From Climacium dendroides (lineage: Eukaryota > Streptophyta > Bryopsida > Hypnales > Climaciaceae), in contig OX467082.1 in assembly GCA_950106755.1 (NCBI GenBank), positions 6,758,001 to 6,822,000 on the forward strand: a stretch of DNA of 64,000 nt, read 5' to 3'. Below the pieces are notes generated by a model. That model had not been told where the DNA came from. It ran no database searches and was given only the letters and a program-made list of their open reading frames with translations. This document shows positions 30,603-61,857 of the stretch, piece after piece (within the stretch, counting starts at the first letter, position 1; every line of letters starts with the position of its first letter). The translations under genes were made by a program, and so were the position numbers.

Positions 30603-30691
30603 CACTATAACAAAACATGGTAAAAAAGGCCGCACTCAAACTCAATTTATTGGTCTTTTTACCATGTTTTCGTGGCAGTCAAATCCATTGC
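30603..30691 (+). repeat. Left terminal inverted repeat of the giant CACTA
   Basis: 89 bp matching the reverse complement of 61769-61857 with one mismatch. The TIR itself contains a smaller hairpin: ACATGGTAAAAAAGGCC near 30615-30631 pairs with GGTCTTTTTACCATGT near 30652-30667. After 30691 the two ends diverge. Confidence 0.95.
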
Positions 30692-30954
30692 TAAATAACT
30701 CTGAAACGAACGACTGTCATTTGATTTATTGGATGTCATACGCGTAGTGAATTCAATTGAAGTGAATGCATATATGTTATAGTGATGTCTTGTTCTTGGT
30801 AGGGTGGTTACGTGTGACCAAAATTAATGTTCAAATCACTGATACACGTAACTGTACCTAGGTACACGTACAAATGAAATTGAAATAATTCATATGTACA
30901 TGGCATATTTGTACGTTCATATGCGCACATACATGTTGCGCTCGTAATTAATTA

Positions 30955-31285
30955 CACTATAACAAAACATGGTAAAAAAAACCGCGCGCAGTCGCGACTA
31001 CAGTTTTTTTGGTCATGTTCTTGTGCGCGTGCGCGTAGTGGACTTGAACCTTCTTTTGCAATTTCCTACTTCAATATTATGAATTTGGAGGCGTGCCATA
31101 TATCATTGGAAAGGTATTTAAAATAACTTTCTAATGATATATAGCACGCCTCCAAATTCATAATATTGAAGCGGGAAATTGCAAAAAACCACGGCTGTCC
31201 ACGATTTTGACTGTCACAAAAACGTGACCAAAAAAACCGTAGTTGCGACTGCACGCGTTTTTTTTTACCATGTTTTGTTATAGTG
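30955..31285. mobile_element. Palindromic CACTA MITE, subfamily B (331 bp)
   Basis: It has the same first 24 bp as the giant element's ends and near-perfect inverted halves. It is flanked by the direct repeat TTA. It sits in the left subterminal region of the giant element. Its sister at 60753-61085 lies near the right end in opposite orientation. The different target duplications show independent insertions. Confidence 0.95.
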
Positions 31286-31577
31286 TTAGAGATACACGAA
31301 CGCGCGCACTAGTTGACATTGAAACATAATTGATCGATTACATGTGCATATTGGTGTTTCATATATATTTTGAAATACAATTACATGTGCCATAGGTTCT
31401 AGTGTATGATTTTGAAACACAATTATGTGCGCACACTTCATGTATATATGTATAGGCTGCATAGTGCGTGTGCGCAATCATATACATGCATTCTTATTTT
31501 TACCATATGACGATGCATGTTGTAAACATCTATTTAGATAGAGTCATTCATCTTCAATAACAACTGTACACACGTAA

Positions 31578-31775
31578 GCGCGCTAATTCTTAATTTGCGT
31601 CAATTCTAAAATGTAAATGTCTGCACGCAAACGCCTACACCTTGCCTCAATTCTAAAATACATGCATGTGCGCGTGCAGATGCCTACACCTTGCCTGCAT
31701 TCCAAAATACATGCATGTGGATGCGCAAAGACACTTTGCGGCAATTGTAGAATGTATGCATGCATGTGCGCAAGC
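31578..31775. repeat. Left subterminal tandem repeats of about 50 bp
   Basis: Three to four units carry CCTACACCTTGCCT, AATTCTAAAATACATGCATG and GTGCGC motifs; clear unit starts are near 31633 and 31683. GCACAT, TGTGCGC and CATGCA words are frequent from 30880 to 31780. In En/Spm such subterminal repeats bind TNPA; that role is inferred here. Confidence 0.75.
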
Positions 31776-32452
31776 GCACTACGTCTCTACTCTTCAACCG
31801 ACATTTGCATCCTGCTTACAGTCACCCTTACTTTTGAAAGCATACATAAACATGTGCCACAACTTTTTTCTGTTCAAGTATGCCTGTACAGTTGCAAAAG
31901 CAAATGCAGCAACACATTTTCTGTGTTCAGGTGTGATTATTTTCATGAGCTACTTCTTCCCTAATAAATTTTAAACATGCATGTTCAGAATCAAATGCAC
32001 ATGCACTACAATTAACATGGTCAACAAATGAATACATACTCAGAGGAAATGCACATTCAATCCAGTACAAGTTTATTCCAACATATAATATAGTGAGAAC
32101 TTATATGTCGAAAAACATTATGCAGGTCTTCTGAAAATAAGAATGGCCTATCAATTTTCAGAGTAACTTCCACATGCTACTGTACAGTAGCTGCTACAAA
32201 CTGAAGACTTCCATCTGCACAGATTTCATTTCCTCGGTCTTGTATTTGTATGGAGTTTTGCAAGAACAATGATGCATAAAAAACATCAATAACAACAATG
32301 AGCAATGACGAAACACTATCTAAGAATTCAAAGGCACATTCCAAAAACATTTTCAAGAACACTACACTTCAACTTCGTATGTTTTCCCAGGAGCGGAAAT
32401 AAAAATTAAATCACATAATGCTTTACATTTCAGTACGTATATCGAACTCTTC
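31776..32452. other. Left subterminal non-coding DNA
   Basis: No exon-like sequence was recognised. It probably includes the 3' UTR of the minus-strand gene ending at 32453. Confidence 0.45.
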
Positions 32453-34303: not shown

Positions 34304-37300
34304 TCAATTGTCACTGGATTTGCGCACCATCCTCCAACCTTTAGAACCCTGCGTACCGCTTGTTCCCGTGTTTGAGAAACGGCCCCTCCTCTTCTCTTTC
34401 CCTGCTTCTCTGCTCAAAGGTGCATCCCGTTTCTTCTGGCTATCTTCAAAATCTGAGTCGCTGTTTGTATTGTCTTGAGATAATGGGATAATTACCTCAC
34501 CGAACAACCTCGTTATTTGGTCTATTGGGGGAATCTCAATTACATGCAAAGTGCACCACATGATAGGTGCATTGGGCACACCCTCCACTTGGTCCAGATA
34601 CTGAATATCTGGTGGGAATCGCATTTTCGAATCAAACATTACAGGGGTGTTTTTATAAAAACAACACACCATTGTTATCATTTGTTGACCTTCTCTGCAA
34701 ACCTCATTCATAGAGTCCACGCACCTTGACTTCCGATTCACTCCAGCATGACCTTCTGCCACAACCTTCCCCACATGCTTCGGATGAAGAATCCACACTC
34801 TCGTCCGGGTCTTGATTGGATTTTGCGTATACAAAACCATTTGTGAGCAACTTCCACATAAAAATACCCCTACATTCCACAACAGAATTTCATCTTTAAT
34901 TTAGCCAACATTGAATACATGGAACCCATCGATTTTTTCCAATGTATGCAACTCTCACAACTTGCAGTTTTTTTGTTCATTTTAGCCATACTCATAAAGG
35001 TCTTCACTGCACTCACAGAGTTCTTCGGTCGCTTATATAACACCAACTTCTTCACAACTGAGGCGTCGATTTCAGCTAACCTCTGTTTTCTCTGTACCTC
35101 CTTACCACTGCGGTGGTTCACTTTCTGTCTCGATTTTCTGCCTTCATCAACAGCCACTTTACGTTTCCTGACAACTCTTGGAAGCACAGGAGGTTCTTCA
35201 TCACTCAAAGCATTCACCTCCATCTCAGGTCGGTCGGATTCACCATCACTTTCTTCCGATGCGGTATCTTCGTCTCCCTCCAAATCCACGTCATCATCAA
35301 TGACCAACATTACAGATTTCCTTGTCATTTTCACCTTCTTCGAACTCCTAGACCGTTCAAAATCCACAGCCACTTTCCCTTTTCCGGAGACTGTGCCTTC
35401 TTCTTCTGCTGCAAATGGCATGTCATGTGCATCTTCACGGAAATTCTCTACCTCCTCCATCATGTGAAGTCCAACATCTCTATTGCTCTTAGGCGGTGCA
35501 ACCCCGCTTAATCTTTCTAATCGCGGCAACACTTCCATGTCTTCCACGTATATTACTTTTTTTTTTTCGGCGGCTTTCTGCTTTATGGACGGTGGAAGCT
35601 CTTGAAAATCTCCGTAGTCAGAGAATTCATCGTTTGATGATAGCAACAACGTCTCCTCCTTCATGATGCCAACCGTGAATTCCGAAGTATATTTCAATTT
35701 ACTTGTATCAATGACCTTAGTCATTGCATTCCTCGAAACCATCTTCTGCTTCCCTGATGAACCCGCTGTCGAAACTTTTGCTACAAAATTCTCCTGCCTG
35801 GGAGTCCACTTTTAGAATAGGTTCTCTTTCAAATTCTTCCACCTCCGGACGCTGCAAGCTATTCACGACCTCTGCCGCTGTCTGGCTGCTCTGTCGACGC
35901 TTCACGGCCGTCTGATTTTTATCGACTGCCCCTAAGTCCTCGGGTTCCCCCAAGTCCCCTTTCAAACATGCTCGAGAGCCACAATGCTCAGCATAGAAAG
36001 ACAGAACGGTGTCCACTACGTTGTAGAGTTGGTTGCTGATGTCAGCCATCGGGATCCTCTGTGTAACTGGAAACCCCGCACTAGTCGTTTTGGACACCTC
36101 ACAAGGAAGTCCCAAAGAATCCTACCATGCACATTTCGAAGTTTTGGTGAAAATTTTGCTCTATATCCAATAAATTTCTTTGCATGTCCATTCAAAATGT
36201 GAATTGCATTGACAAGACGAATCATTAAATGTTACAAACTATACCGAGACTGGTGTGAAAGGAACTCCCAATTCTTGCTGCTCAACATTCTCGACGTTGG
36301 GTTCGTCCACAGTCTTTCCTTTCCCAGACGCTCCGTCTCCCTTCTGATACTTACAACCATTCCACAATATAATTGATTTCCAAACAAACTGATATCAACT
36401 CCTGTACACTGCATGATTATATCACAGACATTGTAATTGTAAAGAGTTTTCATTCCCAAACAACGTTGACTTCTAAAATGTCGTGCATCTGAATCCATTT
36501 TCAAATACGAACCGTTTACCCTTAAAACAAGGTCCTCCGAAAATGCAAAAGCAATTTTATTTAATGATCAATAACCATAGGAATACATACTTCGATCAAC
36601 AACCCTGCACTGCTCTTCACATTATACAATTTCCAAAAGGGCTGAACACGCGTTGTTCAATTCCTCATGTCCAACTGATCCATAGGACTGCAAGCACATG
36701 TTCCACTGAATTTCATGACCACTCCTGATTCTCAAGTGCCACATACTCCTAGTTTGCCCATGTACTCACCCTTTCCTCATTTATCTGAATTCTGTTCATA
36801 TATCACATACCTCATAAACTATCATACTGTACGATGAGAATTACACATTATACAGAGAATTTCTACAACTTCCACTAGGATTAGCAATGTACCCAATTTG
36901 TTTTCTCTACAGCTGCATTGCCGTCGATCCGCTTGTGTTCTTTTTGCTCTTGTGCTGACTTCCACTTCTCTACCAATTGCAACCATGCCCTCTGTTTACA
37001 ACCCTCCGGGTTTTTTTTCTCTCCTTCCTTTATCCAAAATTGACGATATTGAGCTCTACTTCTTTTAAAACATCCCTTCAAAAAATTCTCCACAAACCCT
37101 GAAGGCAATGGTCTGAACAATACAAACTGTCTTCCTACCTCCTCCATTACGTCGTTCATTAAATTCTGGTCATGAACGTCTATATATGCATCCTAAACTA
37201 AGGAATAAGCAACCAACTTCACAACATTAAGAAACTGCGACTTAAACCAAACAATGGTGCCGTCCCTGTCTTGCACTAAGTTCACCTGCGGAACCCTGCC

Positions 37301-39581
37301 CTCTGCGATTGCTCTCTTCACTTCTTTTAAGTAAAACTTGTCGTCCTCTCTTAGAGCCTTCCGTTGGTTCACAGAGTCAGGAGTTCTTGACTTACTTGAA
37401 ATTTCCAAATGTCCATGCGAATGGACATTTGATGGCGACGTTGGGGCATCACTTGCTTGGCTCTGCCTCTGTGACAGTTCACTTCGTTCGGCACTGTCCG
37501 CGACATGACCTTCAAATGGTAACTCAGAAGTTTCACCTGACATTGGCGGCGGCGACCTCACCAGCTGCAACGGCTAAGGAACTGCCTTTCCTTTGTTTCT
37601 TGAAGGGTCCACATCAGAAAATGCCTTCTTATTACCGAGAATGTCTACGTCAGCTCCCATACATTTCATAAACTCATCTTCCGTTCTTTCTTGGCCACTA
37701 CAGAATAGTGGAACTGCATTGGTTGTCCCTCCCTTAGTTGAAGAAGGGTGTGCTTCTCGAAATTGCTCTGCACGAGCAACCTGCTGCTGCCTCTCGAGGA
37801 TATCAATCATGCTTTGACGCATGTTCTGCAACACCAACCATCTATCGTTTTCAGTGGCCCACTTTCCGTTTGTTTCTTGGGAGAACATGAAGTTGTCCCA
37901 ACCAGGAGGTACACTTTGAGATGCAGACATTAACAATGCAGACGACATAGGATTCAACATTCCTGCCGCAAATGATGGATACATCGAAGTTCCATACAAC
38001 TGTTGCATAGGGTGCACTCCCGAACCATACCTTGGTACATAATTCGGCCACGCACCCTGATGTCCAAGTGAAATCTGTGACAGAGACGGACATTGGCACT
38101 ATAACAAAACATGGTAAAAAAAAACCGCGCAGGAACTTCCAAAGTGGTTTTTTTTACACGTTTTTGTGCGCAGTTTTCTTTGCGCGTTGCGCGTAGTGGA
38201 CAGCCAACTTTGGCAGCAATTTCCCACTGCAATTTTTGGAATTTTGGGGCGTGTAATATACCATTGGAAAGGTCTTTTAAATAACTTTCCAATGGTATAT
38301 TACACGCCCCAAAATTCCAAAATTTGCAATGGGAAAATGCTGACAAACTTGGTTGTCTACTACGCGCAACGCGCAAAGAAATCTGCGCACAAAAACGTGT
38401 TAAAAAAAACCACTTTGGAAGTTCCTGCGCGGTTTTTTTTTACCATGTTTTGTTATAGTGTGGTTGACCTGCATCACCAACATTTGTAGAACTGTCACAT
38501 CAAAATCTCAAGTACACTACTCTTCACATCCCGCGTGTCTACTACTAACTTCCTCTCTCATATGTTTCCATTCCGTGGTTAGCCCATTCATATCAAAAAC
38601 TCTTGTTCGACCCGTCGGGATTATTTTATTTTTGGTTCAATCTTTCAGTTTCCATGGACACTTCCACGACTCAATTTATTTTTTCTCCCAGCCGATATTT
38701 CACAACCTTCATGTACTCTCCTCAAAATATGGACTCATATTCCTCTCATCACAGACGGAACTGTGGTCTCGACCAATAAACAGGTAAACATGCGGTGTCT
38801 CATTTCCTTTCATTGCTTGGACAACTACCATACTTGAGGAAACCTCTAAACTCGCAAACGTTATTTCTATTTCACTCCTTATCAAAACGGATCACAGAAT
38901 ACCTCCAAGTTCATTATTCATCCGGTAACATTATTAATCTATTCTGATAATTCAAGGCCACAACAACCCACCTCCTGCATTGACTTACGGAAATGCAAAG
39001 CCACAAATGAACTACACAAAATGTCGCCGTCACTTAAATCATATAGCAATCACTGTATACCACTTCTCATTCATAAAAATGAAGGCTCGGCATTCATGAG
39101 TCACCTACACGTTATTTAATTGAGGCGGTCGCATCGGCACCTGAGACACTTCCTGCGAAACAACAAACACTAAGCAGTTAACATTTTCTTGTCTTCCACA
39201 CAACTTCCCTCACAATTTTCCTTCCATTTTCTTCAATTGCTTAGGTCGACATCATTTAAACAACTTCGTGATTTTACTTACTGTAAATACACACTAACTT
39301 ACCACAGGTGGAATGGCAGAGCTTGCCTGTGCCGAAACAAACGTTGGCTAAACCTATAAAATTAATATACATCATTTATTAGGAAAGCATGAAGTGACGC
39401 TAACATTTCCGAAATTTCATTCCAGTCACATTTCGTTAAGAAAACCCTTCATACATTCTATATTGTGTCTTACCTGCACGTTCAACGGAAGCTGAGAGCC
39501 GCTGCAATCTTCAGAGAAGAATTGCGTACTTTTGATGACCTCGTCGTCAACAGTATTTACGGACTCTACGTGACTGTCCAT
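34304..39581 (-). pseudogene. TNPA-like gene (Ptta/En/Spm Transposase_24 and TNP1-type domains)
   Basis: The accessory protein of CACTA elements binds subterminal repeats. Exons read: 39581-39474 (ATG start, donor CAG/GTAAGA), 39347-39303, 39152-39105, then from 38468 to about 37200 (interrupted by a MITE at 38097-38460), 37165-36893, about 36345-36245, about 36117-35720, 35700-34870 (acidic and basic linker), and about 34880-34304. The 37165-36893 exon resembles Transposase_24 (SRAQYRQFW, WLQLVEKWKS). The last exon resembles the TNP1 domain (RVWILHPKHVGKVVAEGH, then an APIMW-type end). Defects: the MITE in an exon, an in-frame TAG at 37574-37576, and a TAG at the end of exon 3. Junctions in the 36.4-34.8 kb part are uncertain. 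Confidence 0.7.
38097..38460. mobile_element. Palindromic CACTA MITE, subfamily A (364 bp), inside the TNPA-like gene
   Basis: Ends as in the giant element, near-perfect inverted halves, flanked by TGG. It is the inverted-orientation sister of 27395-27759. It lies 8 nt into a coding exon of the TNPA-like gene. Removing it with one target copy restores a frame that is open for the next 172 codons. Confidence 0.95.
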
Positions 39582-39942
39582 GTTTCTTCAGACGGATTTG
39601 AAAGTACAAAGGAAATTCACTTACAACAAACGAAACGTGCAACCCAATCTCTCCTATTCACATGCACGACCACTCATGCATTACGAATACCTCTCTTTCC
39701 CTCAACGAACTCCATCCACAACTGTATACATGAGCATCAATAATGCGTGGTTGAAGACACCTGAACCCACATCCAACCTCCGTCCACATAGTCAGGCGCA
39801 TATTCCGGATCTCCGTCGCCATGTGCCTATACAGTCCATGCCCTCACGTTCCACCTCCCCTAACACAGACAACTTTACTTCTAAATAAGAAAGAGGCCAT
39901 TCAATGCTGCCGCAATTTCCACTGTCAGCGAAAATGTCGTAC

Positions 39943-42900
39943 CTAACTTCCCATCAACAACATCTCCACCTCAAAAAGATTTAACCCTTCATTTTCTACA
40001 TGAGTGACTACTCGACGCACAAAACCAAAGCCACGTCTCCATTCCAAAAAGAGATCTCCACGAAGCACCTTCCGTAGTCTGAAGTCACGGAAACTGGCAC
40101 TGACCTGAATTTGTAAAACACTTCCGCCAAGCCATGGATGAGTAATGCTTGTCAAGTGTTACCCGAGTCTGCAAGTTCCTCTGCGGAAAAAACTCAAGTA
40201 CAGAAATTACGAGTACCTACCGAAAACTATATCTTAGCCCACAAAACTCCTCACACTTTCAACGAATTCATCTTTGTTGCCAATGTCACTCTACAATTGT
40301 AGTGAAACAGTACTAACAGTAAATTGTTCCTGTTCCACTGTAAACTACTTAATTGAATATTACTTTTCATCCACTTCATTGTCACTTATCCTCGAAGAGG
40401 AAAAACCAGTTATTTTTCACATTGCCTCTGTTTGTTTCCCCATAACTCTACTAATCAAACTTACATGAGACAACAACTTCTAAATTTTTCACGTGGAAAG
40501 AAAAACTGAAATGCACAAACTTGTTAGTACGAGGAAAAATATGAGAGTGTTTCCCATTCTCTCATTTTCCATGAAATTCCAAAAAGACATTCAACAATAC
40601 AAGAGTACAGGACAGGTTGATTTCGCCCGTCATTTCGTACCGTTCCATGGGTATATGCAAAAAAAACTTGATTCTGTATACCACATATTATATTGATGAA
40701 TTTTGTAATTATTCCTAAGAATGTTCTTAAATTATTGAAATACATACACTTGTCACTGAAGAATTTGCATATATGAAGTCTGTGCTGGGTCAATTACTTT
40801 CATTCATTTCTTAAAAACATCAAGAAAATCACGATAAAAAAAATTCTTCTCTATACACTGAAGTCATACCAAAACTTAAAGAAGTACAGACCAAGCACTC
40901 CTGCAGGTGCTCATGGAATCCTACCTCGTATACTTTACATTGTATGCTGCTTTAGGGCTTCCAACATTCCCAGCATGTTAGTAATTGTTTCCTACCGTGC
41001 GGTTGTACATCATAACTACTGTTCATACATTTCTATGAGCACAACTTCTAGAACAGGTCCACTCTTCTTTCTTCAACACTAATAACTAAGTAGTAACAGA
41101 TAAGAAATTTGAAGAATCCTCATACTCCGTCTCCACAGTCATCTACTAGTAACATCGCTACCCTCACACTTCCTCATTACAAACACAAACAAATTTTGTC
41201 TACACTATGATATCTAGAGAATAGAGCCACTTACTTCACAAAATAGTGAAGTGAACACTTGGTCACATTCGTCCTCCCTCTTCACAGTGTTCTTGTCCAT
41301 GACTTTGACGTGGGCAAGAGTCTTTCCTACGATTTCGCCAAGTCTTTTCCTTTTCTTACCCGCTCATTGCGGCGGATCCTCTGTCGACGTCCTCTACCTC
41401 CACTGAATACTACCGAGGACTCCACAAGACGGTCCAACTTCGATCCCATTCTCTTCAACTTCATTCGCATTTCATCGAAGATATTCATGCTCTGAATTTT
41501 CAGAGTCAGGGACTGCCTGTACAGGCCTTCGGTTCCATGCTCGTCCTCCTATTAGCACAAACAGGTACTTCACTTCAACGAAAATGTGTAAGGTGTTTTC
41601 ACATATTGAGGTCTCCATTCCAGCATTCCAAATCTCAATTATTGTTTACAAGATTTATCTCCATAATCTAAAAATAGTTAGTAGAAGACATAGACGTCTG
41701 ACCCGCACGTATGCTACAACAAATATTTGACTTACATTAATTAGAGAACGTTATTCTTTGGAGGCTACTTGACTATTTCAGTCAGAACTTGAAGAAGTAT
41801 TATGAACTTTAACTTTTTCTCATAATGAATTGCATTTTCTCTTTCTCTAATACAATTTGCCCAAATTCGGTGTCCAATGTAGAGAAAAAGGGCTCTCCCT
41901 CCTTCACATCGACTAGTTGTAGTAGCAACCGGCCATTCTCAGACGCTGATAGAAGCTTCACATCATCGAATTCTTCCATTAGAGCTCTGCATTTTCCATT
42001 TCAAATAATCAAATTTGCATATACCATGTACTCTAACTCACGATTCCTAAACGTCACCTCTGTTTCATAGTGAGGTACTATTGAACACATCTCAAATTCT
42101 GTGAAAATTTCTGCACCTAATCCCTTTCACAGACATCATGAATACATTCACCCGGGCCACACTACTTTTTAACACGTAAAGGCCTTCCATACTCAATCGA
42201 CTTGTCACCATCTACCTTCGACAAACCATCCACTCATCCTATGAATTACAAGATTCACCCCTAAACAAGGGGCAATCGTTTCTGTTATTCAAATTCTGTT
42301 TCACAAACTCTTGTCCTAAAGGTAAAACAACTCTCTCATTGATATCATGTGATACCATATACAGGAATCCAAAACTTTAAAAAATGCACAACTGAGACGA
42401 AGCAAAGATGTTTCATACGACCTTCACATTCTTCAGTGCAATGAACATTCTGTGTAGGACTTCAAATATACCATATGCACATCACACACTAATGCACGAA
42501 GCGACACGTCACTTTTCTACAGAAATGGCAGAACATACCGCAGATTCTTTCAGTTCGCGCCATGCTGCACCTCACCGTACTCCTCCATCATCGCCCACAC
42601 CTCTCTAACTTTTCCATCAAAAGAAGGTCCCCACTTCACATGCTCTTCTCCATGCAATAGTGCAACGACACGCCCTGATACACAAAAAACCTAACTCACG
42701 ACTACACTTTGCATAAGTTCAGCAGATTTAGAGCTATCCAGAACAACATCTACTTAGCCAGTCCACTCTAATCTGCAATGAGGGTCTTCAACCATTGCAA
42801 TGAAATTTTATTCTCCAACTTCCCCTTCCTTCCATAAATGACAAAAAAAAATGAAAAATACTACAGAGATTGTGTCGCTGTATTCCCACCCATTTTGCTT

Positions 42901-43442
42901 GACAAAAACTATCTTCTCGACAGTCTGCAATGCGAATAACTTCCAAAGCAGTAAAGCTTATAGCCTTCCCAGAAGTCGCCGGACCTTGTACGCCGAAATC
43001 AGTTCAGAACAACAAGTTAACAATTTTCCCATGTGAACAACATAGTTCTCTGACCTTGAACAGAAGCTGTACAGTGCTCTAGTGCTCCAATTAGTAAGGC
43101 ACACTGTCACCATAATTTAGACAAAGAACACAGAAATACCTGAATTGCTCTTCGTCCAATACTTCTTTCCCCCTATTCGTCAAAATTCTCCTCTTACCGC
43201 TTACCGCCTCCTTGCTGTTTTGACGCAATGCTACTGCCTCTGCAATAAAAAACGTTTTCTCATTGCAAAAAAAAAGAGCACTTCACAGGTGGAACCTCCA
43301 CTACACCGTATTTACCTAAAACATTTCCAAAATAAACCTCACGGTGGGAAGAAACACAGAGGGTGTTCCCACCGCAGTGCAAACTCAAAAGATAGGGTCA
43401 TGGACGATGTTACTCACCTACCGAGAGGACAGACTTATCCAT
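39943..43442 (-). CDS. Unrecognised multi-exon gene carried by the giant CACTA
   Basis: A chain of exons with good splice sites and matching phases on the minus strand: 43442-43418 (ATG), 43239-43140 (KEAVSGKRRILTNRGKEVL), about 42995-42862 (EVIRIADCREDSFCQAKWVG), 42674-42576 (ALLHGEEHVKWGPSFDG), a block near 42036-41770 (LLSASENGRLLLLQL), 41491-41360 (MKLKRMGSKLDRLVESS, coiled-coil-like), 41321-41235 (ending in donor GAA/GTAAGT), and a last block about 40150-39943 ending in TAG. Three phase joins are exact, and the join at the LLSAS block is unresolved. I do not recognise the protein. It lies just upstream of the TNPA-like gene on the same strand. A diverged TNPA relative is possible. Confidence 0.45.
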
Positions 43443-46101: not shown

Positions 46102-46812
46102 TCAACTTTCCTCCATGTGTTCCACGACGAAGTGGTTCTGGGAAACGAGGGAGAACTTGATTTGCTGCCCTCTGCGGATCTGATGGAACTCGGCAAACTC
46201 CCTCCAGTCCGCTCCGAAAGCTGCATGAGGACTCCCACTTGTGTTCCATATTGTCACAGTGACGCTCCACAGGAGTTCTCCACCAACATAAGAGATTTGG
46301 GTGCGTTCTTTGAATTCTTCCGCATAGGCTTGAACAAAACTCACAGGAATACCCTAGCAGTAACAAACAAATAGTCAATTCTCTTTCGTTCACATCTTCA
46401 TATGTTCTTCATAGTGAACAGAAGAAGGTGATAGTGTCATTTTTCTGGAATTCATCTATGGGACTTTTAAAAACATTCAAGTCGCTAGCAGGTACGCATA
46501 TCAGAAGAAGCATCAAAGCAGATTCAAAGGAAGGAAAATGAACATATGCGAGAATAAGTGTTTGCACAATATCGTAGCGGAGTTTGAGTAAAAGGACACG
46601 CGCAGTGCCCATATATTGCAGAGGTGACTGTGGAGCTCCAACATTTCGGAAGAAACAACTACGCAGTGAACAGTTTCATGAGGTAAGCAAATGCCACAAG
46701 TTGAAGGAACTAACCATTGACTTTTCGCCATGACCTTCTCGAAGCTCTTGTCGGTGGAGTACGTACGCACTCCACTGAAGACCGTTGCCACAGCTACTCT
46801 CCGTCGCGGCAT
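46102..46812 (-). CDS. Stand-alone B3 DNA-binding-domain protein (REM-like)
   Basis: Two exons in phase: 46812-46711 and 46353-46102 (acceptor CTGCTAG), giving 117 residues. The protein is little more than one B3 domain: SFEKVMAKSQWL, GIPVSFVQAYAEEF, LLWSVTV, FGADWREFAEFHQI, RRGQQIKFSLVSQNHFVV. These are the B3 features in order: the F.KVM..S strand, the IP..F turn, W.V, W.EF, the G..ikF strand and hF.V. B3 proteins are plant transcription regulators that contact the DNA major groove. The frame is intact, unlike the transposase genes. The donor after TTA is inferred from phase and alignment. It could be captured host cargo or a working DNA-binding part of the element. Confidence 0.7.
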
Positions 46813-49800
46813 AGTCTCCGGCTTGTTTCGCTGGAAGGAAGAGAAGCAGACGTCACGTTGAGAGGAGCAGTCAGTGGAGGAAAGCGGAAGTGCAAGTGTT
46901 TCGCTGTGAGGAAAGAATGAGGACTATAGGCACAACGACAACTCACTGCACTACATGAAGTGCAAAGTGATGATTTCAGTCAGATTTACAGCATTAATTT
47001 AATGGATTTGGAAGTAATCATGACATGGCCATCATTTTTAAGAAAAAATATCGACTGGAGAAAACTCAGCGAAGATTTCGTTGTGCTCTTGAAGCTTCTT
47101 TTGTTTTCATATGAAATGATTCGCAAAATCCGAAGAGCGTAACAGAAAGATACGACACTTCAAAAGTGACTCGTTTCTAGGATGTCACATCTTCACTCTG
47201 CGAAGTGTAATATCATTCACAAGAGGAACTGCCAGACGTAGGGAGTATGTCGAAAAGCACGTTTGCCAACAATGTTTCTTCCATCAAAGAAACTATTTTG
47301 TAGAACAGGAGTGTGTTAAAGGGAGCTTGGCAGTTCCCGAAAATTATGTCTTCAACTTGGATCCGTAGTTAAAGGGAGTTTGAATCTCCGACTATCAACC
47401 CTCGGGGTTATACATTGAATTCCAAGATGTAGTCTCAGTCTTTAGTGTTGATGTCTTCAATATGTGGACGGACCAAAGGACCGTCAAGTCCTCCCCTTTT
47501 TTTTTCCCAACTTGCACATATGTTTTTCCATTTACTTTCAGTCATTCAGGTACTTGTTTTTTTCGTGAAATTTCAGTGGACATGTTGCACTATATTGTAT
47601 GACCAGTGAGACCTTCAGTTCTCGTGACATTGACTTGGGGATATGCACAGTTGCACACACACTACTAGAAAATTTCATATTTTTGTTGTTTTGGTCACGT
47701 TGATCCGGTCAAAATCTGACAGAAATCTGTTGAAATCAACAGATTTCTGTCAGATTTTGACCGGATCAACGTGACCAAAACAACAAAAATATGAAATTTT
47801 CTAGTAGTGACAATGTTGATGTCATCAGGATTTCCCGACACAGTGTAACATAAAAGTAGTTTGAACTCAATGGGGAATTCACACAATGTTTATAGTGTGA
47901 ATAGAGTTCTACAAAAGTAGGTTTCCATTCAACCGCGAAGGGAAAAAGATTCTCACTTACTATTATGGTGGAAAAATTGTTTTTCCCCAAACTGACGGAG
48001 TGTTTGCTGTCGTCATGCTTGTCCTGTCATTTTCCGAGCATGGAACATGTAGATGACGTCATAAGTTCTACTCAGAAATTTCCGTCCATGAGGTGAAATT
48101 GAACTCAGAAGCACAAGCGACAGTAGGAGCGAAAGGAAAAAATGCAAAGTTCGGAGCACCTTCACGAAAGATTGAAATCTCAGTAATGGTATGTACGTAC
48201 TCATTTTTTACCTCAAAGTATGGAACTTGAGGAAACGAACTTCAGCAATTGCATGTGGGTTTCGAAAAGTTAGCGGTCCCATATGTTCTAAACAAAATGA
48301 TGTCTGACAGAAGCCTTATCCTTATTCAAAGAATATGGACATAATGACGTATAATGTTTTGAAAAATATGGAAATATTTCAATGTTGGAATGCATTTGAT
48401 TTTGTAATTTTTAAAAAACTGTAATATTCAATAATTGTTTGAAGTTGCCTTATTAGTTCGCTAAAGAGTAAAAATGACATATTACACAATAACTTCTTGA
48501 CAATGTAGTCACAAGCTCAGAAAACCATTCAGCCTTCAAGGTATTCCTTGGGCAAATATTGTGTAAGAAATTGAAAGAAAAGGAATTAAAAATTCATTTG
48601 TATTGAGCTACCTTAAATTACTATGTTGAGAGAAAACGTTTCTTTCTGTTCTAGACATTAAATCCTATATGCCTTAGGGAAAGTAACTAAAGATTGAACT
48701 GCTATGTTATATTATTTTTGAAACTTTTGTACAATTTGGTTTAGTATTCAAAGAGAATGAGAAGCATCGTGCTTACAGTTGCAATTCAGCATGTTCACAT
48801 AACATTCTCTGGGATCCATAAAGAAATCACATCATACAAAAATAATATAACATCCATGTAATCATATGTGAATGTTACCCTCGAAAATTAAATTTCTATT
48901 TAAAATTTAAAATAATTCAGAATAGAATGTCTATCTCCTTCAAATTACGGAATAGCAAAAAGAACTGTAGGAATTAATGCAATGTCTAGCACTTTCTATG
49001 ATTAGGACTATTTTTTACCAATTTCAATTTTGGACATCTCAAACAAAAACTTCCATGCATTTTTTCCTCTTCATACATACGTACTAGACAGAATGCTTTT
49101 GCTACATTTGTATCTTGTTGACTTAATTTCATAAAACATTTGAAGAGCAAAAGAAGTTGTCCATATGATGCTTTCTTTTCCTCCCTTTCATCTTCCATCA
49201 TTATTGAGACACTTTAAACCCATTCTTTTCCATGAGAAGATGGTGTTGCACATGTAAACATTGGAATGTCTCCATATTTCAAACTTTGTCTTCGACATAG
49301 AGCTACAAATCTATAAGATTGCAATACCTCATAAGATAAAAATGTTAAGATATGAATTGTTTTCAATACATTACAAGACTAGGTTTCTTGACTGTGAACA
49401 TGTTTAACTAAAACTTTTAGGAACATAGAGTTTTGAGATTTACATGTTCTTAATGGAGAATTAATGTAAGAGTTCAGGAAAAGAATAAGAAATTGAAGAA
49501 ATTGAAATTTCATTCTTAGAAAATACTTAAGCAGAAGCAGGTAGAAGGTAGAAGGAAAATTAGAATATTTGACACGTTTTACATGGAATTAAAATGCATG
49601 AATCCAAATGGCGACATTGTTATGAAAAGCTAACTCAGCCATGCAAAGAAAATGGAGACGTTGAAAAAATTGCATTCATAAATGAATAATACAAGATATA
49701 TTTTTCAAATACATTATTGAGTTGTTTGAGAAATAGGAATGTCTATAGCTTTCTCATAACAAATCCAAATTCAATAATCAAAGATTCTTACATAGACAGA

Positions 49801-53129: not shown

Positions 53130-53516
53130 ATGAGTCAGGACTCTGAGGTCGAGAGCAATTCAGTTGTTGGTTCAAGCGAAGCATGTGTCGTTGAAAACAA
53201 TTCAGTTTTTGAAAAAGAAGCAGACAGTCTTGAAAGTGTGGTCACCTTGGGTGCAGAAGAATTTGGCAGGGCCGAGGAAGAATACCTCGAGCACCTAACT
53301 TTCCAATATGCAGAGCATATGGAGCTACTGAGTGAAGGATTTGTGCGGGGAAAAATATTTTGGTGGCGGACGGTAGAGGATCTTTACTATGAAAATATGT
53401 ATAGTATGTTATGTTTTTATCACGGTGAAATGGCAATCGATACCTGGGAGGAAGAGTATGACAATTACCTCTATCAACTAGTCTGTGAAGCGCAGGAGAA
53501 CGAGAGGCTGAAGTGA
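53130..53516 (+). CDS. Acidic 128-residue protein of unknown function
   Basis: Complete ATG-to-TGA frame. The N-terminal third is Ser/Val/Glu-rich (SQDSEVESNSVVGSSEACVV). The rest is acidic and aromatic, with repeated Tyr/Trp-Glu pairs (AEEEYLEHLTFQYAEHM, TWEEEYDNYLYQLV), and probably helical. There is no membrane segment, signal peptide or known motif. It lies 320 bp before the transposase start on the same strand. It could be a separate small protein or the 5' exon of the transposase transcript. Its intact frame beside broken transposase exons is notable. Confidence 0.45.
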   Translation: MSQDSEVESNSVVGSSEACVVENNSVFEKEADSLESVVTLGAEEFGRAEEEYLEHLTFQYAEHMELLSEGFVRGKIFWWRTVEDLYYENMYSMLCFYHGEMAIDTWEEEYDNYLYQLVCEAQENERLK

Positions 53517-53837
53517 AAATGGGAAGAGCAATTTTTGTATTGTTTCATCACATTGATGCAGCCAAATTCCATACGGAAAGGTATGTGAAAACTTCTGGAG
53601 TTTTGCAAATATCGGGGATGTCGTCAATGAATGTGGAATGTCGCGATAAAAAAAGTGAAAGTATATGAGAGTGCAATGCGGTTTTCAGTTACGAGACATC
53701 AGTCGTTCGTGTCGTTAGATCATGTGAATCTGAAAACAAAAAAGCATAAGTCGTTTTAAAAATTTAGCATGTATTTGATGGAAATGTGTATGAGAGTAGG
53801 AGAAGACTGAGTTGGACCGGAATTGAAGAAGTACAGC

Positions 53838-56800
53838 ATGGAAGTTCAGAATCGAGGGAGACTGCCGCTCAATCATATAGAGCGAAACCGAGCAAGGGAT
53901 TTGAAACTATTCAGACGAGACAAAGAGAGAGCTGCGAGATTTGGTAATGACATGTACAGATGCCCGTGTAATCTGTGTGGTGGCCGAAGGCGACCTGTGA
54001 GTAGGGGGACGGTTTTGAAGCACTATAAATCAAGAGGAAGGCACGGGGCTCTCAGAGGATGGACAGAGGTGCATATTGTTTCATACAATGCAATTGTTTT
54101 TGTATGTCATGAAACTCAATATGTAATGAACCATAACCGGAGGTGATCTTGGAACTCATAATGTTGTTTTGCATTGTACAGGGAGATGTATATGATTCCT
54201 CAGATGGCGAGTGGGAAGCCCACATCGGTTAGAATGCAAGAGCTTTCCTAGGATTGCAGGAACCCATACAAGAAATTCCTCTTGATGGCGGGCTTGCAGT
54301 TGACGAAATGGTTCAAGATGTTTTGCGGAGAGCCGAAGATGTTCATCATGCAGCGAGGGATGCAGGAGACAATAGTTCTTCGAGCGAGGACAGGGACAAG
54401 GAAGAATTAGTGGGTACACAGTCATTAGAGTTAAAAGAGGGAACGGAGGATTCGGATAATTCTACAGCAAAGGACGCGCAAGGCCAAAACGACGACGTCG
54501 CTAACGAGGCGGACATGTATTTCTCTCCCATTGATGTAGATGAAAGGGCATTTGAACGACGTGGATCGCAAGGGGGGCAAGATTCTGAAATTGAAGAGGA
54601 TAATTTGGAGGAGTTTCTGAGGCATGTCCCGAATGGGCAAATAGGTGAGAATGCAGCGGTGGACATTGCTGCCATGCTTCCGCTATTTGAGGGAGCGAGT
54701 ATGTCAATGCTGGATGCAACTCTGTTGATCTTAAACTGTTGCCGTATCCATGGTGTGTCCAATGCATTCATGAATGAGTTGCTGCTATTGCTGGCCATAA
54801 GCATTCTACCAATGGGTAACGTGATGCCAAAATCAGAGTACGAAGCAACTAAGATGTTGAAGCAGTTCGGACTGGCGTATGACATTATTCATGCTTGTCC
54901 GAAGGGTTGCATTCTTTTTCGCGGAGCTTTGGAAGCAGAAAATAGTTGTCCGAACTGTGGTAGTTCCAGGTACAAGTAGTGTGGTCAGTCAAGAGTACCT
55001 GCGTTGATTTTGCGGCATTTTTCGTTGATTCCAAGATTGTAGAGAATGTTCAGTTCTAGGAAGTTATTAGAACTGAACGTATGGCACTATGACAACCGTA
55101 GTACAGATGGCAAGGTACGGCATACAGCAGATTCGCTTCATTGGAAATTTGTGGACAATGAACTGGAACTTGAGACAACAGTGAATAGGTTTGGTTCAGA
55201 TCCGAGGCACATTCACTTAGGTATGGCAACGGATGGCTTTAACCCGTGGTCAGAGAAACGTAGTACAGATAGTATTTGGCCCGTAATGTTTTTCAATTAC
55301 AATCTTCCCCCGTGGCTAGTAACGAAGAGGTATTTCATAATGTTGTGTTTACTTATCCCTTCGAAATTGTCAGTCACTGGAGAAGTGTTTGATGTTTTTA
55401 TCCAACCTGCAATCGACGAACTACAGGAGCTGTGGAAAAGTGCGGATGTGCGAACAAGAGACGCAAGGGCTCCTGGAGGCATTGAACATTTTAATTTGAG
55501 AGCTTGTCTAATGTGGACCCTACACGACTTGCCAAGATATGGAGTGGTATCTGGTTTAACAACGAAGGGCTTCAAAGGCTGTCCAGTGTGCGGTCCACAT
55601 ACAGTATCTCGTTATTCGAAGGTGCTTCGGAAGATTGTGTATTGTAATTGCCATAGACGATTCCTTCGAGGTAATCACTATTTTAGAGGAGACTTTGCAG
55701 CCTTTGACTATGGAGCGAAATTGGAGATGGAACGGGATCCTTTGTCGGGGAATGAGACTATTCGGAAGGGAAGAGAAAGCGAGCGTTACCTTGAACATAT
55801 TGGAAGAGCTAGGGATGCTGCTTTTCTAGCTAAGGAGCATGGAGTGAAACGAGTGTGTTCTTTATACCAACTGGCGTATTGGCGTATAAGTGTTGAAAAC
55901 AAATTTTTTGAATACTTATTCTGAGAGAAGTATTCTTTATTAAGCTAGGAAGAATTCTTTGAGTAGTGTGAAGTAGCATGTTCCATAGTGTCTGCGAGTG
56001 GGAATTTCAATAAGTTAAAAAAAGTAATAATATTGTTTCATGTTATGACATTTGATGACAGAAACTTCCTCACCGTCATTTATTAGATGTCATGCACATC
56101 GAGAAGAATATATGCGAGAGTTTGTTGAAGGTATTGTCGGGAATCACAGATACAGCTGCTAGTCGCAGAGATATGGAGGAGGAGCAAATTAGACCCCATT
56201 TGTGGGTACGGCAGAATGACCAAGCGCAAGGGAATTTCGTGAAGCCACCAGCTCCTTACGTACTGACGAAGGACGAGCAAAGAATTTTCTTCCAGCAAAT
56301 TGCTGGCATCAGTGTTCCAACAGGCTACTGTGCAGACCTGAAAAAACATATACTGAAGAATAAGCTCGGGAATATGAAGTCCCATGACTTCCATATTCTT
56401 CTTCAGTTCATAATACCTGTGTGCTTAAGACACCTAATGCACCCCGGACCAAGGACAGCCATTATACGATTGGGCCGTCTTTTCACGATGTTATGCAAGA
56501 AGGTACTCACAATATCCGAACTTGAAGCATTGGAAGAGTATGCAGCAGAAACAATTTGCTTGTTAGAGGTATGGTTTCCCCCTTCAGTTTTTGATATCAT
56601 GTGGCATTTGCCGGTCCATTTACCAAAGCAAGTGAAAGAATGTGGACCACTTGCAAACTCATGGTGTTATCCCATCGAGAGGCACATGGGTTTTTTCAAG
56701 AGGTACATTCGTAAGAGATCAAGGCCTGAGGCGTGTATAGCAAATGCCTATATGTATGAAGAGGCGTTAGGTTTTTGTACTAAGTATTTTAAGTTACACA

Positions 56801-58542
56801 CGCATACAAAAAGACGGGTGTGGGACGAAGATGAAGAGCCTGGTGATTGTGGGGAAGCATTGATGGGAAGTGCTGAGGAGAAAATGTTGTCCCCTGTTGA
56901 GCGTAGAGCGATTCATTCCTGGATCATACGGAATTCTTCGGCAATATCAGAACCTTGGAGGTGACTGCCTTTGTATCATGCACTGTACATGTTGTTTGTG
57001 ACATTAGTAGTAGTAAAGAATGGCCACTGCAAATTAATCAAATGTGATGACATATGTACTTTTAGTAAATTCGCGAAAGTTATTTTGAAGGCAGAAATTA
57101 GTGATGCATGTGCCGCATGCTGTCTTTGCATTGTGAACTTGTTTGTTTTAAAAGTTGGAAGGTGAAGCAGTTAGGATCCTTTGTAATTGAAAATTACTTG
57201 TACTGAAGGTTTTATGATGTATTGTAGTGAATGGGTAGTTACTATCCAGTTTCGCCATATTGTAAGATGAAATTGCGATTGATTCAGGTTGTACTGTGAA
57301 GAGAAAGAGACATGTGAAAGAGAGCGGAAATTATATCGAAGGGAAGCTGCAGCGCAGGGGATGTCAAGAAGGGAACAAGTTCTTTACGCAACTGACCATC
57401 GGGAAGATCTGCCAGATTTTGTGGACTGGCTTAGTGATTACACGGCTACTCTAGTTCACAATGTAGGAGTCCGGAGTGTGGATGTAGAACTACGTAGACT
57501 ATCCAAACTGCCAAGTGAGAATGCGGAAAGTTACAAGCACATGTGGGCATATGGGAATCATTACAGGGTGCATGAAGAAAATGGGCAGTATGGGTATGTG
57601 ACACAAGATTATGGGATTTCTTGTGTGTTTGGAGCTGAGGAGGGATGGAACGCTGGTGTTAGCATGGTTGGAGTTCTGAAGGACATAATAGTTGTTCGTT
57701 ATTCAGCGAGAAGAAGAATCGTTATGCAAGGATCGTGGATTCGAGGCAATGGTGGCGAGCGCCCCTCTACAGTGGTGGATGATTACGGATTTACGACAGT
57801 GCGATTTAACGATAGAATTGCAGCTGCTCGTGAACCGTACGTTATGCCCGCAACGGTGCGTCAGGTGAGTTTTGAGGGTAGTTAAGGTCACAATGATTTC
57901 TGAACCGAATCCGAAATGGAAATAGGTGGGTAATTACAGTATTGCTCGTTCATATGTAGGTATCTTGTAATTTGTTCATATGCACTATGGAGTAGGTAGT
58001 ACAGCACAAACGAGTGGTTGAAGCAAGGTTAATATAATACAGTTACTGGAGGTGAATGGATGTGCACTTCATCTTATTTATTTTATAGAGCATGTTTTCC
58101 TCACAAGGGGTAAGCTTTTGGATTGGGTAATGGAAGAGTAGAAGGGGGTGAGGACGTGACAAAAATAATTTGGTGTTCATGTTGTAAAAAACCCCTTCGA
58201 AACAGTCAATATCTTAGAATATGATGATTATTGTAGGTATTTTTCATAGGTGACTGGATGCACTTGGGCTGGAAGGTGGTCTTACCGAAGGAACCAAGAT
58301 CGAGGCGGGTGGTGGACTTGGAGGACGAGTAGATCTTGGGAATCTCAGATGACTATGAGGGGTTGCAGTTGCCGCGTGATCTCAATGGCCAGGAGTATAG
58401 ACCTGTGATTCGATTTGATGGAGATGCAGTGCCAGATGTTGAAATTGCTCGGCTGAACGCATTGGTGAATAGAGAGCGATTACCGAACTTGGCACAGCAC
58501 CGTCGTCGTAGGCGTGATCAACGACATCAGGGTGTTCAATGA
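53838..58542 (+). pseudogene. TNP2/TNPD-like CACTA transposase, three in-frame TAG stops
   Basis: Exons in one phase chain: 53838-54068, 54182-54227, 54252-55891, 56062-56960, 57288-57864, 58237-58542. Domains in order: transposase-associated Cys domain (MYRCPCNLCGG), acidic linker, Cys motif (HACPKGCILF, CPNCGSSRYK), TNP2 core (LGMATDGFNPW, YNLPPWL, HFNLRACLMWTLHDLPRYG, CHRRFL), DUF4218-like part (DVMHIEKNICES, FPPSVFDIMWHLPVHLP, RPEACIANAYMYEEAL) and DUF4216-like part (VGVLKDIIVVRY, VDDYGFTTVRF). This is the full architecture of plant CACTA transposases. TAG codons interrupt it at 54977-54979, 55040-55042 and 58330-58332, with the frame conserved beyond each. The 55892/56062 junction was chosen by phase and homology. 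Confidence 0.9.
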
Positions 58543-60752
58543 GCATGTTGCTCATACATGAGCAGGTGAGTGTATTTTTCATGTCACTAAGTGTTAGTTT
58601 GCCTAGTTCATAATTCTCCAGGTATGTTTAGATTTGTTTCCACGCTGAAGTTTTATCGATGTCTCCTTGTATAAATCTTTAGGAATAATTAGCTCTGCTT
58701 TTTGTAGACAGTAATGTAGGCTAAAAGTGACCATTAATTTCAACTGCGATTGTGCTATGCCATTGATTTTTCCATCACCAGTTGCACTAGGAGAATGATA
58801 AATAGTTAAATACGTAAGTCTTAAACCGAATTTGTTATGAAGGAATTAGAAATAATACGATGTGGAACCTTATTGACTGGGAATTATTTTGTGAGGTTGT
58901 GAGTACCCGTGTGCTATAACGTGATTCCAAATGGTAGGAATCGTTTGCATGTTTCTGGCTGGGGAAGTGGAAGAAACTTCTCGTCCGCTTCGAGAAGTTA
59001 TGAAGCTGTCTTTAGAGATTTGGTTGAAAAAAGATGCTGGGACTGTGCACAAAATCTGACAAAAGGTAATCCTTCCAGTTGGCATTATTCTTCATACAGA
59101 TGGGAGCCATTCTTCATACAGTCGGGAGTACTACCATCACCATTATTTGCACCACAGGTATGAAGTTCCTTGTGCACATTAATGTTTTTTCTTAATTCCG
59201 TCTTTCTCCCCTCAAGGATATAGTGTTTGTAGTGCACCCCTGAAATTAATTTTGTGGTCTTCTACTCATTACTCGTTGTGAGGGATTCCTATTATTAGAT
59301 GGGGAATTTTGAGGGGGATGTCGTCCACATTTTTAAGAGGATTCAATCACACTAGAATACGTATGATTTGAATATTCTATGAATAAGTTATGAGTTGTTG
59401 GAGTCTGAAGTCAGATAGTGCCAATCGAAAGCCTTGACTACCCTTGAACTGTGAGTTGCATCTACAGTATATGTCATGGGAACATGAGAACATCTTTGAC
59501 TATTGTGGAACCTAGAAGTATGTCATTTATCACGGGCCACGTACTTGGATGTCACTTGTATTGTACATGGATGACGTTTCAAAGTGTGGAAGAAGTCACC
59601 ACAATGGCTTTCCAGAACCATACTCTGATTCATCTTAGAGAATTTGTGTTCAAATTTTCTACTAATTTTAGTTGCAAGTGATTAGTGGCAATTTCTACCA
59701 AAGTTTTCAATTCCTGATTTAGTTTCATTTTTGCTCTGTAATTGAAGGGTGTTACTCTGCTGGGAACTCTGTGTTATTGTTATTTGGGGAATGTGTTTTA
59801 GTTTACGGATGTATTTCATCCCTTGTGGCAGGTACGACCTTGCAGATGTTGAAAGGGATCGTCACCGAGGTGGTCACTGAGATCGGGATTGGTCTGACCG
59901 TGATGAAAAGAAGCCTCGTCATGAGTGAGACAGTACTTGCTGCCTGGACGTGTGGGATCCGGTATTGCAGAAAGAATGTGCCACAAATGTACTACTTCAA
60001 TTGTTTTGTTGTTTATGTCTTTCAGTATGAGCATTATTAGTGGAGCTTATTTCTTACACATTTATATCCCCATTTAATCTCTCTCATGGTAGGGAAGTGT
60101 GTACTTTGAACCCCTTTGCTACTCATTTTGTTGTTTGTAGATGTAATGCAGCTCTCGCCCTGTTAGTAGGAGGTGCTGTGGATGCTAGGGAATGAAAGGT
60201 ATATATTTTGAAATACAAGTTTCTATGCACGACTTGCAAGAGGGGAAAAAAGTGTGCTTCGGGATGAGGCTAGAGATTTTGATGTTAGAATGTACAATGT
60301 AGAGTGCATGTGAAGTAGTAGTGCAAGATATGTTGTCAGTGGATACCGTTTCATTGTAGTTGGTGTCCAAGACGCACTTAGGAATCCTCTTGAAGTGCAA
60401 GAAGTGACTACAAGTAGGAGCTAGTGTGGGTATTCCAACAGGCAGGAAGCATCGGGCAGCCGTGAATTTCATGGCTTCACTTATTTTTGATCACGGTCCT
60501 TTTAAGTTGAGATGTACTTAATAAAACAGGATGTGTGGTGCATCTTCGGAAATTACGTTTCTGGTACTTAGGTTTGAGAGCACTCTTGTCTCCTACTCGT
60601 CCTGCCATGCAGTGATTTGTAATTCAGTTTTAAGCTATCAGATTCTTCAGTGGACTCTGTGTCATTGTTTTGGCTTCTGGGTTTTTCATGAGTTGTAACA
60701 GAACAATGGAGAGTCTTCAGTTTCATAATTTTGTGTACAGCAGGGTTTCTAT
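58543..60752. other. 3' part of the giant element, possible relic exons
   Basis: Short plus-strand blocks with splice-like borders occur, such as about 58940-59060 (acceptor AAATGGTAG, donor AAAAG/GTAATC), but two frames are equally open and neither is recognised. The transposase 3' UTR should lie here. Nothing firm can be called. Confidence 0.35.
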
Positions 60753-61085
60753 CACTATAACAAAACATGGTAAAAAAAAACCGCGCGCAGTCGCGACTAC
60801 GGGTTTTTTGGTCACGTTTTTGTGACAGTCAAAATCGTGGACAGCCGTGGTTTTTTGCAATTTCCCGCTTCAATATTATGAATTTAGAGGCGTGCTATAT
60901 ATCATTAGAAAGTTATTTTAAATACCTTTTCAATGATATATGGCACGCCCCCAAATTCATAATATTGTAGTGGGAAATTGCAAAAGAAGGTTCAAGTCCA
61001 CTACGCGCACGCGTACAAAAACATGACCAAAAAAACCGTAGTCGCGACTCCGTGCGGGTTTTTTTTACCATGTTTTGTTATAGTG
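60753..61085. mobile_element. Palindromic CACTA MITE, subfamily B (333 bp)
   Basis: Same termini as the giant element and near-perfect inverted halves, flanked by TAT. Sister of 30955-31285 in opposite orientation. Confidence 0.95.
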
Positions 61086-61379
61086 TATGTTATTGTTGAC
61101 TTTGTAGTTGGTGTACACAGGTGCGAATGAAATGTGGAACGCATTTTCTGTTGGTTTCATGTACGTGTATGTCTTCGTAGCATTCAGATTATGGGACATG
61201 TGTACATCATGTAGTTTTTGTGAGTCATTTTAATTTTTGTTCATCTTTAGAGTGATAGATGTACTGAGTTTGGCAAGTGGAAGTTCCACAACTGCTAAAG
61301 ACTTGCACTTATACCATGAGCACTAGTTGCATGAATGCCAATTCAATTTCTAGTAATGATGTCTTTGACCTCATAGATT

Positions 61380-61620
61380 TATGGCTATGTGCATGTGAGT
61401 GCTCATAAGTCTATGGCTGGAACAAGTATGTTGTAGCTGCACATATATCCACCATGCCCACTTGTTGCACGTAGGCACAGAGCTTGCACACACATAATTC
61501 TGCCCGTGCTCTTCTATATGCACATGTTGCATGTGCACTTGCACATGAATGAAGGACTTTTTTTCACACATGATGCATGCGCAAGCATTTAATTCTACGT
61601 GCCCATTGGATGTACTGCAT
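61380..61620. repeat. Right subterminal repeat cluster
   Basis: Frequent GCACAT/ATGTGC and TGCATG words (for example ATGCACATGTTGCATGTGCA near 61529) mirror the left subterminal cluster in inverse orientation. This fits TNPA-type binding-site arrays; the function is inferred. Confidence 0.55.
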
Positions 61621-61768
61621 ACATGTGGTACAAAATCATAGTGCATTAATTAATTAGGTACATGGATTAGGCGCATAGACAATTACATTTCTTGTGCATA
61701 CAAAAATTAAATGATTGCGAAAAAAATGAGTGACAGTCAATCATTCCTTCCAAGATCAATAGAACAAC

Positions 61769-61857
61769 GCAATGGATTTGACTGCCACGAAAACATGGTA
61801 AAAAGGCCAATAAATTGAGTTTGAGTGCGGCCTTTTTTACCATGTTTTGTTATAGTG
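61769..61857 (-). repeat. Right terminal inverted repeat of the giant CACTA
   Basis: 89 bp, the reverse complement of 30603-30691 with one mismatch. Followed directly by the CTT target duplicate. Confidence 0.95.

Follow-up and report, generated by a model that had tools for sequence, protein, structure and literature searches.

The 64,000-nucleotide stretch of the Climacium dendroides genome analyzed here (hereafter the window; C1:6758001-6822000 in a 412.6-Mb assembly of 123 contigs that served as the search space) contains a CACTA element of 31,255 bp at positions 30603..61857 that was inserted as a single unit. In the reading that we favor, with a probability of about 0.8, it belongs to a CACTA (En/Spm) lineage with an ancestral unit of about 30.2 kb in this genome, represented by collinear full-length copies, that encodes TNP2 and a TNPA-like protein and acquired a gene for a B3 DNA-binding protein before splitting into two subfamilies. 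The likely layout consists of two gene modules pointing outward from an AT-rich center, TNP2 rightward and the TNPA-like gene leftward, with the B3 gene in the middle. The large size of such elements is known, and the unusual feature is the B3 gene, which, judging from sequence comparison, apparently has been retained vertically across the two subfamilies.

The element is delimited by 89-bp terminal inverted repeats (TIRs; 30603..30691 on the plus strand and 61769..61857 on the minus strand) that were delineated by inverted-repeat comparison and by genome matches. The two TIRs are identical at 88 of the 89 positions, start with CACTA and end with TAGTG, and directly abut the two copies of the 3-bp target-site duplication CTT (30600..30602 and 61858..61860). 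A 201-nt query composed of the joined flanks yielded 31 matches in the genome, 27 of which are uninterrupted over the junction and represent empty sites, the best 17 being 83-89% identical over 198-202 bases. Two of the remaining four are the window's own halves (query positions 1-103 and 101-201, with the 3 bases of the CTT in both), and the other two stop before the junction. The 27 junction-crossing paralogs indicate that a gypsy-type repeat served as the target. The first-pass annotation, which was made from the sequence alone and described a single-unit insertion of a CACTA element, thus holds in this respect. That annotation also posited gypsy coding sequence on both sides, joining in phase once the element and one CTT are removed. 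A minus-strand frame indeed runs across the restored junction, and matches to reverse transcriptase and RNase H are located left of the element, but stop codons are close by, and the only upstream open frame scanned on the right (62137-62517) had no Pfam match, so that the empty sites are stronger proof of the insertion than the continuity of the frame.

When a CACTA element reaches 30 kb or more, captured or nested DNA is an easy explanation. The sister copies of the window's element point to a different origin of its size. In a genome search with the 89-bp TIR, we scored the best 40 of 95 candidates, so that all counts are lower bounds, and obtained at least 18 matches at 97-100% identity including the two in the window, with the other 16 showing 97-99% identity over 87-89 bp. 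These matches form seven inward-facing pairs spanning 30.4-51.6 kb and leave four single ends, all of them left ends with no partner right end among the best 40 of 95. Six copies were read whole (A, the copy in the window, and B, C, D, F and G), and a seventh, E, was read at its ends only. All seven are flanked by perfect 3-bp duplications (CTT in A and D, ATT in B and C, ATA in E, TTT in F and TGA in G), and the TIRs of each copy differ at 0-4 of the 89 positions, with an altered end, TAGGG, in D. The six whole copies are 93.8-98.2% identical to one another across the aligned element and have in common a body of about 30.2 kb (30,256 alignment columns occupied in at least five of the six). 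The empty sites and the additional full-length copies were two of the checks proposed with the first-pass annotation, and both were found; other copies that were much shorter and devoid of the genes, the observation named there as contrary to a large gene-carrying lineage, did not turn up among these pairs, and the content travels along with the ends.

Copies B and C (C37:320577-354269 and C34:34451559-34498210) are alike in their flanks over the 100 bases read to either side, which is most simply explained by one insertion that was duplicated together with its surroundings, leaving six independent insertions. A segment containing the entire element, then, was probably duplicated between contigs. 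The variation in size among the copies is mostly due to later insertions. Copy A contains three miniature inverted-repeat transposable elements (MITEs) of the CACTA type, copy C a nested stretch of about 12.9 kb with the ends CACTATAAGAA/TTCTTATAGTG that belongs to another CACTA-like family, copy D a CACTA-like insert of 1.1 kb, and copy F three inserts of 617 bp, whereas about 3.4 kb of extra sequence is common to B and C. Copy A is also the only one of the six whole copies with a 161-bp insert at 47649-47809, 150 bp of which form a 98.7% palindrome.

A genome search with copy F's TNP2 exon as the query revealed a second subfamily. The best 74 of 911 candidates comprise the seven copies described above (group 1; 93-100% identity), 14 loci at 63-74% (group 2) and 53 loci at 43-47%. 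Element H, the only member of group 2 that was measured, was followed from one end to the other (C40:3894587-3932817; 38,231 bp); its 19-bp tip is that of group 1 and its duplication is AAA, so that all eight elements in which both ends were read have 3-bp duplications. Short coding-like blocks along both arms are collinear between A and H, and the left and right arms of A, F, G and H are opposite in GC skew. By this comparison, the H subfamily has the same plan as group 1. Given that the six whole copies share the 30-kb body and H shares the plan, large size looks heritable in this transposase-bearing lineage. For the analysis of selection, we compared A and H by NG86 estimates of nonsynonymous (dN) and synonymous (dS) divergence, setting the coding frame against the remaining two reading frames on that strand. 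In TNP2, its DUF4218 exon, the TNPA-like gene and three left-arm exons, dN is well below dS, a pattern that is absent in the other two frames.

The right arm contains the TNP2 gene on the plus strand, and the claim of a TNP2-like gene inside the element is borne out by Pfam matches to Transposase_21 (E=2.1e-56) and DUF4218 (E=2.2e-33). The gene starts with a 5' conserved block common to A and H (53256..53513), followed by a Cys-containing block (53838..54137) that has homologs and matches Transpos_assoc at only E=0.044, the transposase main exon (54140..55921; dN 0.20 and dS 1.8 for 54566-55894), the DUF4218 exon (56059..56961; dN 0.13 and saturated dS for 56212-56961), a C-terminal block with a weak DUF4216 match (57283..57882; E=0.021) and a last conserved block (58237..58491; 55 of 85 residues identical to H, dN 0.28, dS saturated). 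The main exon is free of stops in E and F and contains one to three stops in the other five copies, with three TAG stops in copy A, and in copy F the frame is shifted in the 53838-54137 block. Given these stops and the frameshift in F, no copy has been demonstrated to be intact throughout. Copy A itself is dead, with three stops in TNP2 and a MITE in the left gene. TNP2 sequence, partly stopped, is nevertheless present in all seven group-1 copies, which sets them apart from Pack-TYPE elements, including Pack-CACTA, where the transposase gene is missing.

The left arm appears to be occupied by one long leftward gene, or two, as suggested by its minus-strand blocks and the opposite GC skew. From its 3' end, the gene comprises, on the minus strand, a coding block open in A, B and C (34307..34900; in the A-H alignment of 34311-35202, the minus strand scores only slightly above plus), a block encoding acidic and basic stretches (34873..35811), and the TNPA-like conserved domain (36866..38096, core 36890-37400; dN 0.29 and dS 2.2 against H), for which 55 homologs were found, some with weak Transposase_24 matches. 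Further upstream are three conserved minus-strand exons at 41906..41989 (dN 0.20 and dS 1.2 over 27 codons; the plus strand ties on identity), 42532..42641 (dN 0.34 and dS 1.5 over 35 codons) and 42887..42986 (24 of 32 residues identical to H, dN 0.18, dS saturated), together with a possible exon common to H (41415..41550), whose strand is uncertain, the plus frame scoring higher and the minus frame being stop-free, and a possible further 5' exon (43140..43239, minus strand) that is followed by a GT also in H and has boundaries set by eye. Excluding MITE and end matches, seven left-arm blocks between 34.3 and 43.0 kb are common to H, and the minus strand is best in five, with one tie (41906-41989) and one preference for plus (41415-41550); for the four such blocks within 39.9-43.4 kb, the corresponding numbers are two, one and one.

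The first-pass annotation had treated the 39.9-43.4 kb stretch, as well as a Cys-rich and an acidic gene, as separate cargo. This part is not supported in that form: the 39.9-43.4 kb blocks, mostly on the minus strand and with three exons under purifying selection, are most simply 5' exons of the TNPA-like left gene, and the stretch probably consists of short exons of that gene. No separate Cys-rich or acidic gene was identified in the element; such stretches sit within TNP2 (53838-54137 and 54140-55921) and the left gene (34873-35811). We also considered the left arm as a set of captured host genes, which is not the simplest reading, the coding-like blocks being common to the H subfamily.

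The B3 gene is located on the minus strand in the central part of the element. The exon for the DNA-binding domain (46105..46353) matches Pfam B3 with E=5.2e-6 and 26.7 bits, below the cut-off of 30.1 bits, and is found in all seven group-1 copies, in agreement with the first-pass claim that a B3 gene travels with the element. A probable upstream exon (46516..46923, minus strand) contains a KSFEK motif also seen in H and has no Pfam B3 match. The B3 exon of H just exceeds the Pfam cut-off (30.4 bits, E=3.8e-7) and had no sequence match in the PDB at E up to 1. A B3 match lies within 25 kb of TNP2 in all seven group-1 copies and at 10 of the 14 group-2 loci, that is, at 17 of 21 loci, with distances between the two genes, 7.7-13.7 kb, that agree between the groups. 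The window's B3 exon has 29 matches in the genome, 17 of them near TNP2, and these are headed by the seven group-1 copies (88-100% identity) and then nine group-2 loci (39-43%). Of the 45 matches to the H exon, the ten highest-ranking are the group-2 loci, and the next seven are the group-1 copies at 63.5-69.2 bits. Over 77 codons compared between A and H, replacement differences affect 38.7% of sites and synonymous differences 76.5%, which is not the case in the two shifted frames.

Two alternatives to the acquisition of B3 before the subfamily split have to be weighed. Under the first, this would be an ordinary large CACTA element whose B3 sequence is a piece of a host gene, picked up passively and without a role, like the cargo of Pack-TYPE elements. 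Capture of gene fragments by CACTA elements is documented in published accounts (PMC8978399, PMC8195511), stops interrupt the B3 exon in three of the seven group-1 copies, and its dN exceeds that of the transposition genes. Against this reading stand the presence of B3 in both subfamilies, at 17 of the 21 TNP2 loci, an exon free of stops at eight of the ten group-2 loci and an excess of synonymous over replacement change in the B3 frame but not in the two shifted ones, and we consider this alternative unlikely. Under the second, each subfamily would have captured B3 independently from related host B3 genes. This would account for the fact that B3 and TNP2 differ in relative orientation between the groups, for B3 identity of only 39-44% where TNP2 retains 63-74%, and for the approximately equal scores of three loci on contig C37. 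However, the presumed host B3 genes, clustered open frames at C2:40.74 Mb and C35:3.4 Mb, score only 33-44 bits against H, under the group-1 set, and the B3-TNP2 distances agree; we give this scenario, too, a low probability. Four short elements inside or close to the window's element carry the tip sequence of that element, which might suggest a composite or an assembly artifact in which two small CACTA ends flank 31 kb of unrelated DNA. This is hardly conceivable and is refuted by the empty sites and the collinear sister copies: six other TIR pairs occupy five further independent sites (B and C sharing flanks), all of them contain TNP2, and the interior is the same in those five copies that were read whole.

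A number of observations nonetheless weigh against a single early acquisition of B3 by a conserved three-gene lineage. Of the genes tested, B3 shows the lowest conservation, with 32 of 77 residues identical and the highest dN (0.54); it is opposite to TNP2 in strand in all seven group-1 copies and on the same strand in nine of ten group-2 loci; its exon contains stops in 3 of 7 group-1 and 2 of 10 group-2 copies; and 4 of the 14 group-2 TNP2 loci have no B3 match. In the search with the window's B3 exon, the tenth group-2 locus (C15, 35%) falls below six loci outside both groups (29-36%), and in the search with the H exon, the three C37 loci (62.5-63.5 bits) are level with the lowest group-1 copies, with four more unplaced loci at 45-56 bits. 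With regard to the left gene, Transposase_24 was detected in 10 of 20 scanned proteins (the family's own and 19 of the 55 relatives) only weakly, with the best E value of 0.0085, and not in the family's own protein, which lends the first-pass identification of a TNPA-like gene no more than slight backing; one left-arm block favors the plus strand and another ties; and the splice structure is putative, its sites having been read by eye from the A-H alignment. For the TNPA-like protein, structure prediction reached a mean pLDDT of only 54.6 and the PDB offered nothing at E<0.001, so that the model was not used. The protein search retrieved at least 207 relatives of TNP2, 120 of them listed, and 55 of the left protein. 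Nine contig sizes recur among the relatives of both, so both genes probably reside on the same contigs in other organisms, as far as sizes alone can tell, and with one of these contigs being only 7,459 bases long, some of the relatives may be small rather than giant. An excess of C>T and G>A changes is a mark of methylated, decaying DNA. Such changes dominate the substitutions within group 1, making selection hard to read there; because of this bias, and because many unrelated frames also give low ratios, within-group codon tests were not used. Apart from this balance of evidence, the C37 loci (C37:24569402, C37:25974950 and C37:27319782) have similar B3 matches with two internal TGA stops each and may be a third transposon group.

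En/Spm elements are mobilized by TNP2 together with a TNPA-like protein. If the lineage with early-acquired B3 functions likewise, TNP2 from some intact copy, together with the TNPA-like protein, would cut the CACTA tips and move the whole 30 kb, and the same proteins would drive, as non-autonomous passengers, MITEs of 330-365 bp that carry the same 24-bp tip as the 30-kb element. The B3 gene would have been gained once, before the split of the subfamilies, and kept as an accessory rather than being a fresh capture of a host gene; we favor a role in which it acts on the element itself. A more specific and rather speculative version, to which we assign little weight, is that B3 is a third transposition factor or an anti-silencing factor that binds CATGCA (RY-like) words in the left subterminal region. 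The B3 domain of the element presumably is REM-like, and we know of no established RY binding for this class. The lead for this version is the composition of the left end (30692..32102), where CATGCA and TGTGCGC words are numerous, and where all five group-1 copies tested, as well as H, show an excess of CATGCA. Binding to the Sph/RY element has been described for the B3 domains of ABI3, FUS3, LEC2 and VAL1 (PMC8136769). If the idea is correct, the element carries its own transcription factor along with the binding sites, both kept in the two subfamilies.

The word counts, compared with shuffled sequences, cover copies A, B, D, F, G and H. The left 1.5 kb of copy A contains 12 CATGCA words against 3.8 expected, a count reached by none of 300 shuffles; the five group-1 copies have 12-15 and H has 13, with 3.6-4.8 expected and 0 or 1 of 300 shuffles reaching the observed number. 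Against CATGCA binding, other words are enriched as well, GCGCAC being likewise overrepresented at the left end, and the right end of A, B, D, F and G shows no CATGCA enrichment (32-205 of 300 shuffles reach the observed count), with only a mild one in H (6 of 300).

Large CACTA elements have been reported before. The first-pass statement that they usually extend to about 20 kb was too strong: published descriptions give up to 30 kb for wheat CACTAs (PMC4290129) and 40,619 bp for the Ipomoea Tpn1 element (cited in PMC8195511), which we compare with the present lineage by size only and which fall in the same size class. The passages on the wheat and Ipomoea elements give sizes and mention neither a conserved 30-kb core nor a B3 gene. 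With CACTAs of 30-40 kb already published, large size alone is not new. The 20.5-kb soybean element Tgmt/Tgm9, as described in PMC2613891, is similar to the Climacium element in the CACTA termini, the 3-bp duplication, the combination of TNP2 and TNPA-like coding, and large size. Unlike the arrangement here, with opposite strands and a B3 gene, the TNP2 and TNPA-like products of Tgmt/Tgm9 are spliced from one gene (PMC2613891). The En/Spm families of Chondrus crispus, 16-20 kb with four or five open reading frames, are likewise enlarged by extra frames but are smaller and belong to a red alga (PMC6431247). Captured genes, as well as Transposase_24 in ORF2, have been noted in CACTA elements (PMC8978399). 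By contrast, a search of titles and the beginnings of abstracts, with most subscription journals not covered, found no description of a CACTA element with a B3 gene among the papers listed, although an article on rice cis-regulatory elements has both words (PMC8385297). A plant transcription factor domain resident in a DNA transposon would make it possible to examine directly whether transposons of this kind enlist regulators of the host to control their own expression, silencing or excision. VANDAL transposons are of the MULE type, and VANC is not a B3 protein. A possible analog in Arabidopsis is nonetheless found in the VANDAL/VANC system, in which a transposon-encoded, sequence-specific DNA-binding protein is reported to act on the element's own repeats (PMC10398659).

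Three CACTA MITEs are nested within copy A and missing in the other five whole copies: one at 30955..31285 with its own TTA duplication, one at 38097..38460 with a TGG duplication, within the long open frame of the left gene, and one at 60753..61085 with its own TAT duplication. Thus, of the subterminal repeats listed in the first-pass annotation, the long ones at 30955-31285 and 60753-61085 turned out to be MITEs, whereas the short repeats at the left end stand. Another CACTA MITE, outside the element at 27395-27759, has an AAT duplication and the same 24-bp tip; it is inverted with respect to the MITE at 38097-38460, with which it shares 97% identity.

Elsewhere, an Rfam scan of the 64-kb window at gathering thresholds gave no matches. 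The window also contains an 80-bp tandem repeat (18801-19026; 2.8 copies, 89% matches) and a palindrome of about 550 bp (63043-63591; 82% self-complementary). Matches to WSD (1690-2421) and to a PHD finger (27168-27698), both on the minus strand and about 25 kb apart, are possibly pieces of a chromatin-type host gene, and an uninterrupted minus-strand frame of 336 amino acids at 21754-22761 encodes a mitochondrial carrier (E=1.1e-70), with ADP/ATP carriers as the best PDB matches.

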